From the NCBI GenBank assembly GCA_019359045.1, contig JAHHIA010000006.1, positions 62,001-126,000 of the forward strand: a stretch of 64,000 nt of DNA. Direction: 5' to 3'. Below the pieces are notes generated by a model, which did not search any database, had not been told where the DNA came from, and was given only the letters and a program-made list of their open reading frames with translations. Position 1 is the first letter of the stretch, and each line of letters starts with the position of its first letter. This DNA comes from Scytolyngbya sp. HA4215-MV1 (GTDB lineage: Bacteria > Cyanobacteriota > Cyanobacteriia > Leptolyngbyales > Leptolyngbyaceae). A program made the translations under genes and the position numbers. Below, piece after piece: positions 13,565 to 16,125 of this stretch.

Positions 13565-14122
13565 ATGACGCTGACTTATGCGATTCTGGCGCTTTTGGTG
13601 GACTTTCCCCAGAGCGGCTACGATTTGACCAAAAGTTTTGCGGGGTCGATCGGCTTTTTTTGGAAAGCGACCCATCAACAAATCTACCGAGAACTTGCCC
13701 GCTTGGAAGACAAGCAATGGATTCATGCAGAAGCCATTGCCCAAGATGGGCGACCCGACAAAAAGCTCTATCGCCTGAGTGAAACGGGGCGAGCCGCATT
13801 GATGAAATGGATTGTGGAACCCTGCGAAATGGCTCCTGTCAAGGACGAACTCCTCATTAAGGTCTTTGTAGGAGAATTGGTGTCCTGCACGAAGCTGCTG
13901 CAGGAATTGGAACGCCATCGCCAATTGCACCAGAAAAAGCTAGCGACCTATCTCGATCTGGAGCAACGCTTTTTCCCTCAACCTGAGCTTCTACCTTTGG
14001 CTAGAAAATATCGGTATGTTACTCTCCGCCAAGGAATTCGCTACGAACAAGAGTGGCTGGCTTGGTGTGATGAAACCATCCAGTTTTTGTCTGCGGAAGT
14101 GGCGGTTTCGGTAGAAGCTTAG
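13565..14122 (+). CDS. PadR family transcriptional regulator
   Basis: The protein has 185 residues. The N-terminal winged helix (MTLTYAILALLVDFPQSGYDLTKSF, then THQQIYRELARLEDKQWI) and the wing with GRPDKKLYRLSETGRAAL are typical PadR. The second half (residues about 95-175) is a helical Vir_act_alpha_C-type dimerisation domain. It probably represses itself and the divergent carotenoid oxygenase gene through the repeats at 13474-13548. The ligand is unknown; an apocarotenoid would be a natural guess, but nothing in the sequence shows it. Confidence 0.88.
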   Translation: MTLTYAILALLVDFPQSGYDLTKSFAGSIGFFWKATHQQIYRELARLEDKQWIHAEAIAQDGRPDKKLYRLSETGRAALMKWIVEPCEMAPVKDELLIKVFVGELVSCTKLLQELERHRQLHQKKLATYLDLEQRFFPQPELLPLARKYRYVTLRQGIRYEQEWLAWCDETIQFLSAEVAVSVEA

Positions 14123-14225: not shown

Positions 14226-14729
14226 TTGAGTCAGTCCATTGATCTTCCTAAAGTAGACGAGTTTTTACAAGAATTAGCGACGATCCAACAGACCAGTTCT
14301 AAACGAATCGCCGTGTTGGGTTCTCGTCATGTGCCAATTACGCATCAAAACTTGATTGAGATGATGACTTACGCCCTGGTATTGGAGGGTAACCGGATCA
14401 TCACTTCAGGTTCTACAGGCACTAACTTTGCTGCAATTCGGGGTGCGTTGCGGGCTGAACCGAGTCTGCTTACTGTGATCTTGCCACAAAGCCTCGATCG
14501 TCAACCGCGCGAATCGCGGGAGCAGCTTGAGCAAGTTATGCATTTAGTTGAGAGTCCCGAAGGTGATGATTTGTCTCTCGCAGAAGCAAGCGCGCTCTGT
14601 AACCAAGAAATTGTTTCTCGGTGCCAGCAGTTGATTTGTTTTGCCTTTCACGACAGTCATACGTTGCTGAATACCTGTCGAGAAGCGGAAGAACAGCGCA
14701 AGGTCGTCACTTTGTTTTATTTTGATTAG
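14226..14729 (+). CDS. DprA-like DNA recombination-mediator family protein
   Basis: The 167-residue protein starts with TTG (SQSIDLPKVDEFLQEL). This start is chosen because it yields the conserved N-terminus seen in cyanobacterial relatives. It is a short Rossmann-like protein with RIAVLGSRHVPITHQNLIEM, RIITSGSTGTNFAAIRGAL and SRCQQLICFAF. These resemble the nucleotide-binding-like fold of DprA/Smf. It is much shorter than true DprA and lacks its SAM and winged-helix domains. Annotation as a recombination mediator is by family label; the actual function is uncertain. Its end abuts the regulatory region of the DAHP synthase gene. Confidence 0.65.
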   Translation: MSQSIDLPKVDEFLQELATIQQTSSKRIAVLGSRHVPITHQNLIEMMTYALVLEGNRIITSGSTGTNFAAIRGALRAEPSLLTVILPQSLDRQPRESREQLEQVMHLVESPEGDDLSLAEASALCNQEIVSRCQQLICFAFHDSHTLLNTCREAEEQRKVVTLFYFD

Positions 14730-14820
14730 CGCTGTATACTGAACGACTTTCAGTCAGCGCAATCCCAAATGATTTCTAGCAATTTACTGTCTTGTTTAAA
14801 TTGGCAACAGAAATAGTTCT

Positions 14821-14844
14821 GTTTGGATGGTTAACCATCCAAAC
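14821..14844. promoter_or_regulatory. Perfect 24-bp palindrome upstream of the aromatic leader region
   Basis: GTTTGGATGG, TTAA and CCATCCAAAC form a perfect palindrome about 90 bp before the proposed promoter. No U-run follows on either strand, so it is not an ordinary terminator. It could be an operator, or an RNA hairpin ending the preceding transcript. Confidence 0.5.
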
Positions 14845-14932
14845 AGTTCGTCATGGGCGATGTGTATCAATGCATCTTGATTGAAGAAGTCTTTAGCAAG
14901 TTGCCAAAATTCGCAGTTACTGAATAGGGGGG

Positions 14933-14961
14933 TTGACGTGTTCTAGGGTCTCTGTTAGCCT
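14933..14961 (+). promoter_or_regulatory. Candidate sigma-70-type promoter of the aromatic attenuator operon
   Basis: TTGACG (14933-14938) is followed after exactly 17 bases by TAGCCT (14956-14961). Transcription would then begin about 18 bases before leader peptide 1, which suits a ribosome-coupled attenuator. Confidence 0.5.
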
Positions 14962-14985
14962 CAAAGCACGTAAAGTTTTTAACCC

Positions 14986-15042
14986 ATGTCTCCCAGCAAG
15001 ATTTACTTTTATTTTTGGTTCGAGGCGGTTCACTTGGAGTGA
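14986..15042 (+). CDS. Aromatic leader peptide 1 (18 residues)
   Basis: An ATG-to-TGA reading frame encodes MSPSKIYFYFWFEAVHLE. Codons 7-12 are six aromatic residues in a row (TAC TTT TAT TTT TGG TTC), covering Tyr, Phe and Trp. Its last codons (15025-15039) can pair with 15061-15075, and a strong terminator follows. This is the architecture of a ribosome-mediated attenuation leader, as in the trp and phe leaders of enterobacteria. The downstream gene is DAHP synthase, the common first enzyme for all three aromatic amino acids. The ribosome-binding site is weak. Existence as a translated peptide is inferred, but the codon run, placement and competing hairpins agree. Confidence 0.75.
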   Translation: MSPSKIYFYFWFEAVHLE

Positions 15043-15075
15043 ATACAGTTCGTCTTGAACTTCCAGGTGGACCGC
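15025..15075 (+). promoter_or_regulatory. Antiterminator 1
   Basis: GCGGTTCACTTGGAG (15025-15039) pairs with TTCCAGGTGGACCGC (15061-15075) over 15 continuous base pairs, three of them G-U. A small AGTTC/GAACT hairpin can sit in the loop. The 3' arm uses the first bases of the terminator stem (15071-15075), so the two structures exclude each other. The 5' arm lies in the last codons of leader 1. A ribosome reaching the stop codon would cover it; one stalled at the aromatic codons would leave it free. Confidence 0.7.
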
Positions 15076-15103
15076 AGAGTAAAATCTGCGGTCTTTGTTT
15101 TTT
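15071..15103 (+). terminator. Attenuator terminator 1
   Basis: ACCGCAGA (15071-15078) and TCTGCGGT (15085-15092) form a perfect 8-bp stem with a 6-base loop. CTTTGTTTTTT follows. It is a strong intrinsic terminator located after leader peptide 1. Confidence 0.85.
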
Positions 15104-15129
15104 GAATTTTTCTCAAAGTGGATTGTGAA

Positions 15130-15192
15130 ATGCCCCAGCTGAATGGTTTCTTTTTTGGTTTTTATTTTTGGACCAGGGATACCCCCGGCTAG
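15130..15192 (+). CDS. Aromatic leader peptide 2 (20 residues)
   Basis: A second ATG-to-TAG frame encodes MPQLNGFFFGFYFWTRDTPG. Seven of eight consecutive codons (7-14) are aromatic: Phe x3, Gly, Phe, Tyr, Phe, Trp. It starts 27 bases after the first terminator's U-run and is followed by its own antiterminator and terminator. It repeats the logic of leader 1 without being a sequence copy of it. Phe codons dominate here, whereas leader 1 balances Tyr and Phe, so the two stages may differ in sensitivity. Translation is inferred. Confidence 0.75.
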   Translation: MPQLNGFFFGFYFWTRDTPG

Positions 15193-15225
15193 GTTCGTCA
15201 CGCAGGTGTTCGGATAGCCCGGGGT
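15181..15225 (+). promoter_or_regulatory. Antiterminator 2
   Basis: ACCCCCGGCTA (15181-15191), which overlaps the last codons and stop of leader 2, pairs with TAGCCCGGGGT (15215-15225). Ten of eleven positions pair, with one C-C mismatch. The 3' arm contains the 5' arm of terminator 2, so the pairings compete. Confidence 0.65.
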
Positions 15226-15244
15226 TTAGGCTCCGGGCTTTTTT
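15216..15244 (+). terminator. Attenuator terminator 2
   Basis: AGCCCGGGG (15216-15224) pairs with CTCCGGGCT (15231-15239), one G-U included. The following U-run spans 15239-15244. It ends 32 bases before the DAHP synthase ATG. Confidence 0.88.
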
Positions 15245-15276
15245 ATGTTCATTACCCTTTGTACAGGAGTTACTCA

Positions 15277-16125
15277 ATGTTGGATGCTAACTTAGCCAAT
15301 AAATCTCACCCTCAACAGCGGACGATCGTCCAGTTATCAGAACAAGTTGCCCTTGGCGATCGGGAAATCGTCATCATTGGTGGACCTTGTACGGTTGAGA
15401 GTTTGGCTCAAATGGAAGCAGTTGCCTCAGTTGTGCCAGTGAATGCACTACGGGGCGGGGTCTACAAGCCCCGTACCTCGCCCTATGCCTTCCAGGGACT
15501 CGGTGTAGAAGGGTTAGAGATTCTGTCATCTGTACGACGACGCTACGGCTTGCCAGTGGTCACAGAGGTGATGGCGATTTCCCAGATTGAGACGATCGCA
15601 GCTCATGCCGATATGCTCCAGGTGGGTAGTCGAAATATGCAAAATTTTGATCTGCTCAAAGCGTTGGGTCAGGTAGACAAACCGATACTGCTCAAACGAG
15701 GGCTATCTGCCACAATCGAAGAATTTGTGATGGCAGCCGAATATATTCTCAGTCACGGCAACTCGCAAGTGGTGTTGTGTGAGCGCGGGATTCGCAGTTT
15801 CGATACCTATACCCGCAATGTCCTGGATCTGGGAGCAGTGGTTGCCCTCAAGCAAATTACCCACTTGCCAGTTCTGGTTGACCCCAGCCATGCCACCGGT
15901 AAACGCGAACTGATTCCCGATCTGTCTAGGGCTGCGATCGCTGCAGGTGCAGATGGGTTAATCATTGAGTGCCACCCAGAACCTGAAAAATCGGTGTCGG
16001 ATGCCCGTCAGGCGCTGTCCTTGGAAACGATGGTTGAGTTAATTCAGAGCCTGAACGAGATCGCCACAGCAATCGGACGACAAATTCACCTGCCAAAGCT
16101 CCAGGTTCCAGCCATGGCTGCCTGA
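15277..16125 (+). CDS. aroF: 3-deoxy-7-phosphoheptulonate (DAHP) synthase, AroF/type I-beta
   Basis: The ATG at 15277 follows CAGGAG at a proper distance, giving 282 residues. The enzyme condenses phosphoenolpyruvate and erythrose 4-phosphate, the first step of the shikimate pathway. Motifs in order: IIGGPCTVES, RGGVYKPRTSPYAFQG, QVGSRNMQNF, LLKRGLSATIEEF, LCERGIRSFDTYTRN, VDPSHATGKRELI and GLIIECHPEPEKSVSDARQAL. The barrel begins near residue 30. The N-terminal ferredoxin-like or chorismate-mutase regulatory domain of allosteric type I-beta enzymes is therefore absent, and protein-level feedback may be weak. Expression appears to be controlled by the two leader-peptide attenuators upstream. 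Confidence 0.93.
   Translation: MLDANLANKSHPQQRTIVQLSEQVALGDREIVIIGGPCTVESLAQMEAVASVVPVNALRGGVYKPRTSPYAFQGLGVEGLEILSSVRRRYGLPVVTEVMAISQIETIAAHADMLQVGSRNMQNFDLLKALGQVDKPILLKRGLSATIEEFVMAAEYILSHGNSQVVLCERGIRSFDTYTRNVLDLGAVVALKQITHLPVLVDPSHATGKRELIPDLSRAAIAAGADGLIIECHPEPEKSVSDARQALSLETMVELIQSLNEIATAIGRQIHLPKLQVPAMAA

Follow-up and report, generated by a model that had tools for sequence, protein, structure and literature searches.

Within the 64,000 nucleotides of Scytolyngbya sp. HA4215-MV1 that we analysed (the window), two short reading frames rich in Phe, Tyr and Trp codons lie one after the other ahead of aroF, a DAHP synthase gene that opens the aromatic amino-acid pathway, and each is followed by an intrinsic terminator. 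This raises the question of whether one gene is governed by two leader-peptide attenuators in series and, if so, what the two units would sense. An earlier note, made from the sequence alone, had read the locus as ribosome-mediated attenuation, doubled. Comparison of orthologous loci supports this logic, while transcript ends, ribosome occupancy and a response to starvation remain inferences. In the absence of transcript, termination or ribosome data, we regard it as very likely that the two units are ribosome-mediated transcription attenuators in series on aroF.

Layout of the locus and its enzyme

The elements follow one another on the + strand in the order sigma-70-type promoter, leader 1, terminator 1, leader 2, terminator 2 and aroF (Table 1). 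What the earlier note had claimed of this arrangement held. The two serial leaders were found exactly as described, with six consecutive aromatic codons in the first and seven aromatic codons out of eight in the second. Both terminators were confirmed, as were the competing pairings between arm A and arm B, which comprise 15 bp with no mismatch and three G-U pairs in unit 1 and 10 of 11 positions in unit 2. The downstream gene was confirmed as aroF with NCBIfam. An in-frame GTG at 15118 provides an alternative start for leader 2. Counting both strands, the 1-kb region holds 4 terminator-like sites against 1.1 expected from shuffled sequence, and a stricter consensus promoter scan returned no promoter in 14500-15500.

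Table 1. Elements of the aroF leader region, numbered from the first letter of the window
Feature	Position	Strand	Details	Basis
Promoter	14933-14961	+	-35 TTGACG 14933-14938, 17-nt spacer, -10 TAGCCT 14956-14961	Sequence; motif kept in relatives
Leader 1 ORF	14986-15042	+	MSPSKIYFYFWFEAVHLE, then stop; aromatic codons 15004-15021	Kept in orthologues
Antiterminator 1, 5' arm A	15025-15039	+	Codons AVHLE (GCG GTT CAC TTG GAG)	Pairing and comparison
Antiterminator 1, 3' arm B	15061-15075	+	7-nt overlap with 5' arm of terminator 1	
Intrinsic terminator 1	15069-15103	+	Stem 15069-15094, then U-rich tract to 15103	
Leader 2 ORF	15130-15192	+	MPQLNGFFFGFYFWTRDTPG, then stop; aromatic codons 15148-15171	Kept in orthologues
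Antiterminator 2, 5' arm A	15181-15191	+	Codons TPG and part of the stop codon; mostly Ser-Gly in relatives	
Antiterminator 2, 3' arm B	15215-15225	+	Spans the 10-nt 5' arm of terminator 2	
Intrinsic terminator 2	15216-15244	+	Stem 15216-15239, then U tract to 15244	
aroF	15277-16125	+	282-aa type I-beta DAHP synthase; AGGAG at 15265-15269	

Upstream lie two genes without an evident role in the aromatic pathway (13565-14122 and 14226-14729), one for a PadR-type regulator and the other for a small protein that resembles DNA_processg_A/DprA only weakly, below the cut-off. Soon after the stop codon of leader 2 a stretch resembling GTCATGC or GTTGTGC recurs in many loci (window 15194-15203; columns 28-41 of the unit-2 alignment described below), which may mark a pause of the polymerase or form the foot of a small hairpin.

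The 282-residue aroF product scores above the NCBIfam cut-offs for type I-beta DAHP synthase. It aligns to NF006421 only from model position 70 onward and, among solved structures, covers the 272-residue chain 3pg8 almost fully and the 338-residue chain 1rzm only from residue 74, and thus it lacks the N-terminal domain of its longer relatives. Both chains we take to be Thermotoga enzymes, and in the DAHP synthases of Thermotoga the N-terminal domain carries feedback inhibition. Because this domain is absent, we infer that the short aroF is likely to be controlled mainly at its leader attenuators. The same genome has two further PF00793 genes, one of them encoding a long I-beta-like enzyme, and no aromatic codon run was found upstream of either.

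Conservation, pairing and coding in orthologous loci

Orthologues were collected from 58 genomes including the window's own (51 with a match at E <= 0.001, 34 with a stretch of at least 69% identity), from the phylum (38 of 386 genomes matching at E <= 1e-90) and from the 80 best loci of a scan of named genomes, among which L069-L093 are closely related and belong to Cyanobacteria and Melainabacteria. The locus set does not include a partial match in G037. The detector, promoter and coding counts omit L003, L074, L079, L085 and L086, each a genome present twice, and L028, whose leader-1 segment is identical to that of L024 though it comes from another genome; the detector counts also exclude L002, a long paralogue.

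We scored upstream regions with a strict detector that demands an aromatic-rich ORF, a terminator and an overlapping competing helix. Of 84 orthologous loci it assigned two units to 65, a single unit to 16 and no unit to 3 (L055, L058, L067), so that 81 carry at least one. It recorded no unit in 420 dinucleotide-shuffled upstreams and none in 45 upstreams of the relatives' pheA (23) and trpE (22) genes, a scan that left out eight PF04715 loci (L194-L201) and two further matches. The 56 other loci L093-L148 yielded a single unit (L124); loci of other lineages were measured here from the matched core, with less true upstream covered where an N-terminal region exists and almost none at L136. Inspection by eye raised the two-unit loci to 74 of 84 by adding L020, L029, L031, L032, L055, L069, L081, L089 and L090. 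Culturable strains with the tandem include Desmonostoc muscorum FACHB-395 (L074) and Hydrococcus rivularis NIES-593 (L069). Eight loci have a single unit, of the leader-1 type in L059, L061, L088 and L091, of the leader-2 type in L057, L058 and L075, and of other sequence in L068; L058 and L085 are one genome, with the leader-2 type unit only. L025 is cut by a contig end and still retains terminator 1.

In a typical orthologue leader 1 reads ..SYFYFWF..VHLE or VHRE before its stop codon and leader 2 reads ..SWFYGFYFWPR..SG, in the same order. N-termini and lengths vary, and conservation is found mainly in the aromatic codons and those of arm A. The earlier note had named orthologues without codon runs and stems as its refutation; the orthologues carry both, usually as two units in the same order, and their alignment revealed compensatory changes in antiterminators and terminators together with conserved aromatic codons.

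A single promoter motif accompanies this arrangement. Of 74 loci, 72 (all but L083 and L088) have TTGAC-N16-19-TANNNT in the 160 nt before leader 1, against 3 of 74 reversed sequences; between terminator 1 and leader 2, where the gap has a median of 34.5 nt, none of 68 loci has it. With one motif before leader 1 and none between, the units should act in series, unit 2 being reached only by polymerases that have passed unit 1.

To assess the pairings we aligned 75 unit-1 segments (A1) and 75 unit-2 segments (A2). A1 lacks the leader-1 units of L020 and L081, which the script misfiled; A2 lacks the leader-2 units of L032, L055, L058 and L069, which it missed, and retains the leader-2 segment of L028, and L068 was excluded from A2 and the coding counts. 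The segments were picked by a detector requiring helix and hairpin, a choice that inflates pairing percentages and should not inflate double changes relative to shuffles. In A1, 86.6% of the antiterminator 1 cells are paired and 10 of its 15 pairs show double changes; there are 77 double-change cells against a shuffle expectation of 27.7 (0/500 shuffles reach the observed value) and the covariation is 0.264 against 0.153 in shuffles (0/500), while slid versions of the helix pair in at most 48.5%. Terminator 1 is 99.7% paired with double changes at 4 of 9 pairs, and its number of further pair types is not above shuffles (129/500). In A2, antiterminator 2 is 84.9% paired with double changes at 5 of 11 pairs, and its 37 double-change cells exceed the 17.4 of shuffles (0/500); two of five covariation measures do not exceed them (pairs with double changes, 149/500; further pair types, 219/500). 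Terminator 2 is 90.9% paired with double changes at 5 of 10 pairs.

The compensation can be read in the peptide itself. Leaders 1 ending in VHLE (CAC TTG GAG) face the partner CTCCAGGTG, those ending in VHRE (CAC CGG GAG) face CCCGGTG, and those ending in VRPE (CGC CCG GAG) face TCCGGGCG, so the C-terminal residues of leader 1 seem likely, as inferred from this sequence comparison, to be set by RNA pairing. Helices of each locus also outscored swapped and shuffled ones, with means for own, swapped and shuffled A:B of 30.9, 24.9 and 15.2 in unit 1 (58 loci) and 23.5, 21.0 and 13.6 in unit 2 (55 loci). A candidate pause or protector hairpin in leader 1, TTCAC/GTGAA, is 94.4% paired and showed no double change and no covariation; only leader 1 was considered for it.

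The 3' arms share 7 and 10 nt with the 5' arms of the terminators; complete A:B pairing and a complete terminator are therefore mutually exclusive, and a shortened A:B helix can coexist with terminator 1. Ribosomes have a footprint of 13 nt from the A site, and we assumed this value for the geometry. On this assumption arm A is hidden under a ribosome that has reached the stop codon of either leader, and most of it is free when the ribosome stalls in the aromatic run. Distances among ORF end, arm A and terminator stay within a narrow range in the aligned segments. The stop codon precedes the end of arm A in four loci for leader 1 (L005, L029, L042, L062) and in three for leader 2 (L027, L052 and its duplicate L086), and L055 has a leader-2 frame without a stop near arm A. 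When folding was followed stepwise, at least 6 A:B pairs formed before the 3' arm of the terminator existed in 75/75 unit-1 and 74/74 unit-2 segments; placing a ribosome on the last aromatic codon left 5 or more of these pairs in 69/75 and 72/74, and with arm A covered the terminator formed in 75/75 and 69/74. At equilibrium the window's unit 1 favours the terminator with a shortened A:B (-31.1 kcal/mol) over the full A:B (-27.9), and unit 2 is nearly balanced (-25.3 versus -24.6 kcal/mol), so antitermination would have to be kinetic.

Evidence for coding comes from leader 1. Of the three codons just ahead of the last aromatic one, -3 is aromatic in all 75 segments and -2 and -1 in 74 each (223/225). 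Their second base varies among T, A and G; a T-initial codon with a middle G is always TGG and never TGT, TGC or TGA, and a middle T never gives a Leu codon. Frame 0 holds 6.0 (leader 1) and 6.8 (leader 2) aromatics per nine codons and the other frames 1.5-2.6, a comparison that is partly circular in that the nine-codon stretch was chosen for its aromatic content. The third codon position of leader 1 is not more variable than the second, so the usual third-position excess is absent; this entropy test is uninformative for coding because exchange among F, Y and W changes the second base. Phe, Tyr and Trp codons are all present in 72 of 75 leader-1 and 68 of 74 leader-2 segments. The earlier claim that the sensed residues match the three end products of the pathway is refined by this count, in that both leaders mostly carry codons for all three.

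The weakest point for translation of the leaders is the missing Shine-Dalgarno-like sequence, which is almost absent at their starts (2/74 and 5/75) and present at the aroF start in 73 of 84 loci. This is no refutation, since a C. glutamicum leader without a ribosome-binding site has been published (cited in PMC4046766). Sequence and comparison together establish the reading frames, the conservation of their aromatic codons, both alternative structures, the order of the elements and the one promoter motif.

Proposed mechanism and competing explanations

The mechanism that we propose is inferred from these features, as are leader translation, stalling on uncharged tRNA, premature termination, the starvation response and the multiplicative logic. 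When the Phe-, Tyr- and Trp-tRNAs are charged, the ribosome would cross the aromatic codons to the stop codon and cover arm A; A:B pairing would then fail, the terminator would fold and transcription would end. If any one of the three charged tRNAs were short, the ribosome would stall in the aromatic run and leave arm A free to pair with arm B on the 5' side of the terminator, and RNA polymerase would continue to aroF. Each leader would in this way act as an OR gate over Phe, Tyr and Trp. Because terminator 1 precedes leader 2 and no promoter motif lies between, both terminators would have to be passed (an AND of two OR gates), which would give low leak and a steep, multiplicative response. 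That both units sense aromatics and multiply read-through is a prediction without experiment, towards which we lean by a modest margin.

The locus meets what is expected of an amino-acid-leader attenuator, with a codon run for the pathway's own products, an intrinsic terminator (judged by sequence and structure only) and a mutually exclusive antiterminator whose 5' arm would be covered by a terminating ribosome (given the assumed 13-nt footprint). It also meets what is expected of a tandem attenuator, namely two complete units with no promoter between, promoters being judged by motif only. No Rfam family reached its gathering score; the best of 11 matches had 20.7 bits against a gathering score of 77, and no T-box, Trp or Phe leader family was among them.

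The alternative that survives best, and remains possible, is that the leaders differ in specificity, for instance Tyr/Phe against Trp according to codon position relative to arm A, and integrate two signals as in mgtCBR. Residue order does differ: the final aromatic codon encodes Trp in 59 of 74 leader-2 and 23 of 75 leader-1 segments, and the distance from this codon to the start of arm A is 6-12 nt in 68/74 leaders 2 and 3-7 nt in 68/75 leaders 1. Against this stands the presence of all three aromatics in most segments of either leader, as counted above.

An unlikely alternative is that one unit alone regulates and the other is a back-up, a fail-safe terminator that lowers leak without sensing. 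The single-unit loci listed above speak for it; however, two-unit loci keep both aromatic runs and both antiterminators with compensatory changes, and a mere terminator would need neither an aromatic run nor an antiterminator. We consider it very unlikely that the ORFs are functional small hydrophobic peptides, or untranslated, with the hairpins forming a protein- or ligand-binding element. The leaders without Shine-Dalgarno-like sequences and the lack of expression data leave room for this view, but it is mainly aromatic and arm-A codons that are kept, with variable N-termini and lengths, the Rfam search gave no family at its gathering score, and the distances among ORF end, arm A and terminator are narrow. 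Chance, by which AT-rich intergenic DNA yields TTT/TAT runs and hairpins, is all but excluded: the genome does hold other aromatic runs, with 4 matches of four TWY codons followed by TGG and 8 of the reversed control pattern, but the 0/420 shuffles, the 0/45 control upstreams, the compensatory changes and conservation in orthologues refute it.

Relation to known systems, distribution and significance

Attenuation by two like ribosome-mediated units in series, the reading we prefer, has partial counterparts. In C. glutamicum the aroR leader before aroF acts by ribosome-mediated attenuation through a Phe-Tyr-Phe leader (PMC11802643, PMC4046766), likewise an aromatic leader on a DAHP synthase gene; that actinobacterium has one leader, reported to respond to Phe and not Tyr (PMC11802643), whereas here there are two, most with F, Y and W codons. 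The proposed Acholeplasma attenuator uORFC-13-1 (PMC8632094) shares an aromatic uORF and a downstream terminator before aroF, but it is a single leader, its pairing sequences differ by eye and the gene begins before the matched core. In our own scan L095, L100 and L102 (Acholeplasma/Acholeplasmataceae) have one Tyr/Phe-rich leader (..YYYFYQM-like) and a terminator about 360 nt upstream of the aroF core, which probably correspond to this published motif. L124 (Ruminococcus sp. zg-924) and L140 (Syntrophobacteraceae) show a single aromatic-rich ORF and a terminator-like hairpin about 330-480 nt upstream of the core; they are possibly further independent DAHP synthase attenuators in other phyla, and the strict detector passed only L124.

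The E. coli trp and phe leaders combine regulatory codons, a stop near a pairing arm, and an antiterminator competing with an intrinsic terminator, and the present units share these traits (the trpL and pheL attenuators are mentioned in PMC11802643). Here, unlike there, arm A lies within the last codons of the leader, and its direct partner is the 5' side of the terminator, so the default without translation should be read-through; nor is a covarying 1:2 pause or protector hairpin shown here, leader 1 having been looked at. Tandem short ORFs are known from Salmonella mgtCBR, where mgtM and mgtP sense ATP and proline, an arrangement its authors called singular (PMC3641672). In both systems transcription is controlled by a pair of short ORFs that follow one another in a single leader mRNA; there the signals are different, whereas the aromatic codons of the two present units specify the same three amino acids. 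Streptococcal mefA/msrD has two attenuators for one signal in one operon, its leader ORFs mefAL and msrDL both answering erythromycin (PMC10314930). There, however, a drug and not tRNA charging is sensed, and the second attenuator controls msrD only and the first both genes, while here both precede one gene. The Merino list in PMC1173090 (Table 7, confined to tyrA operons and without a cyanobacterium) predicts attenuators before Thermus thermophilus aroAI-beta and two units in the aromatic supraoperon of Streptococcus pneumoniae, the latter at different places of the gene cluster; the passage does not say what kind of attenuator is meant.

For cyanobacteria, PMC4833913 (2016) stated that reliable data on attenuation were lacking. 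The earlier note knew of no described case of two serial aromatic leaders on a cyanobacterial DAHP synthase gene. In the open-access literature that we searched (subscription papers and the Merino database being outside its scope), we likewise met neither an aromatic leader in cyanobacteria nor a pair of leaders in series for the same amino acids. Single aroF leaders and tandem attenuators for different signals are thus known already, and what appears new, within that literature, is a serial aromatic pair on aroF inferred to sense the same signal.

The distribution was followed with covariance models of unit 1 (R1) and unit 2 (R2), searched in 386 genomes of the phylum with Infernal's stricter filters, so that weak units may be missed. 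R1 exceeded 60 bits in 36 of 38 short-aroF genomes (missing from G191 and G387) and nowhere else among the 386; 39 genomes had R1 in all, three of them outside short aroF with at most 36.9 bits. R2 matched 59 of 386 genomes, 36 of the 38 short-aroF genomes at 33.1 bits or more (missing from G164 and G387) and 23 others at 31.9 bits or less, a thin margin. Both models matched in 35 of 38 short-aroF genomes. Matches there are expected because many of these genomes supplied the models, and the informative part is the near absence of R1 away from short aroF. The three R1 matches elsewhere were rejected as a decayed aroF locus (G084), a match inside a coding frame (G404) and an ordinary-looking terminator (G304).

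Decay and disruption were also seen at individual loci. In G084 (L237) a decayed leader 1 is fused to aroF remnants, the system apparently being in loss, and in G424 (L067, L239) about 6 kb of inserted DNA, its first frame integrase-like by eye, splits both leaders and the aroF start from the rest of the gene.

Outside the photosynthetic lineage, both units with the GTGAACCGCAG core at terminator 1 occur in L083, L089 and L090, the second leader of L090 having only four Tyr codons; L091 has one varied unit, and no unit was found upstream of aroF in L093. L090 and L091 are labelled Candidatus Obscuribacter, L083 and L093 Melainabacteria, and L089 only Cyanobacteria. A quick tree of 138 enzymes (L060, L067 and L136 left out) places 78 cyanobacterial proteins together with those of L083, L089, L090, L091 and L093 (support 99), the latter five forming one group (support 94), with many forks unresolved; Gastranaerophilales have a different, distant enzyme. 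Two further points refine the first reading: there is one conserved promoter motif, and the system occurs well beyond this genome, some Melainabacteria included.

The tree fits descent from a common ancestor, and an old transfer remains possible. A bolder reading, which we hold to be slightly less likely than not, is that a same-signal two-stage attenuator, an AND of two Phe/Tyr/Trp OR gates behind one promoter, already existed in the last ancestor shared by photosynthetic Cyanobacteria with Candidatus Obscuribacter and the Melainabacteria related to it, and that it was retained from then on by a DAHP synthase gene whose product has no regulatory domain. If this were true, it would be among the oldest traceable leader-peptide-type switches and, to our knowledge, the first established ribosome-mediated attenuator in cyanobacteria.

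The tandem offers a strong and widely conserved case of attenuation in cyanobacteria, and a model from nature of how a steep, low-leak switch could be made by placing two similar sensors in series, with natural single-unit variants available for comparison. Aromatic supply in cyanobacteria, hosts engineered for aromatic products, is also likely to be controlled at this point, and we infer that deleting both terminators should derepress a DAHP synthase that has no regulatory domain.
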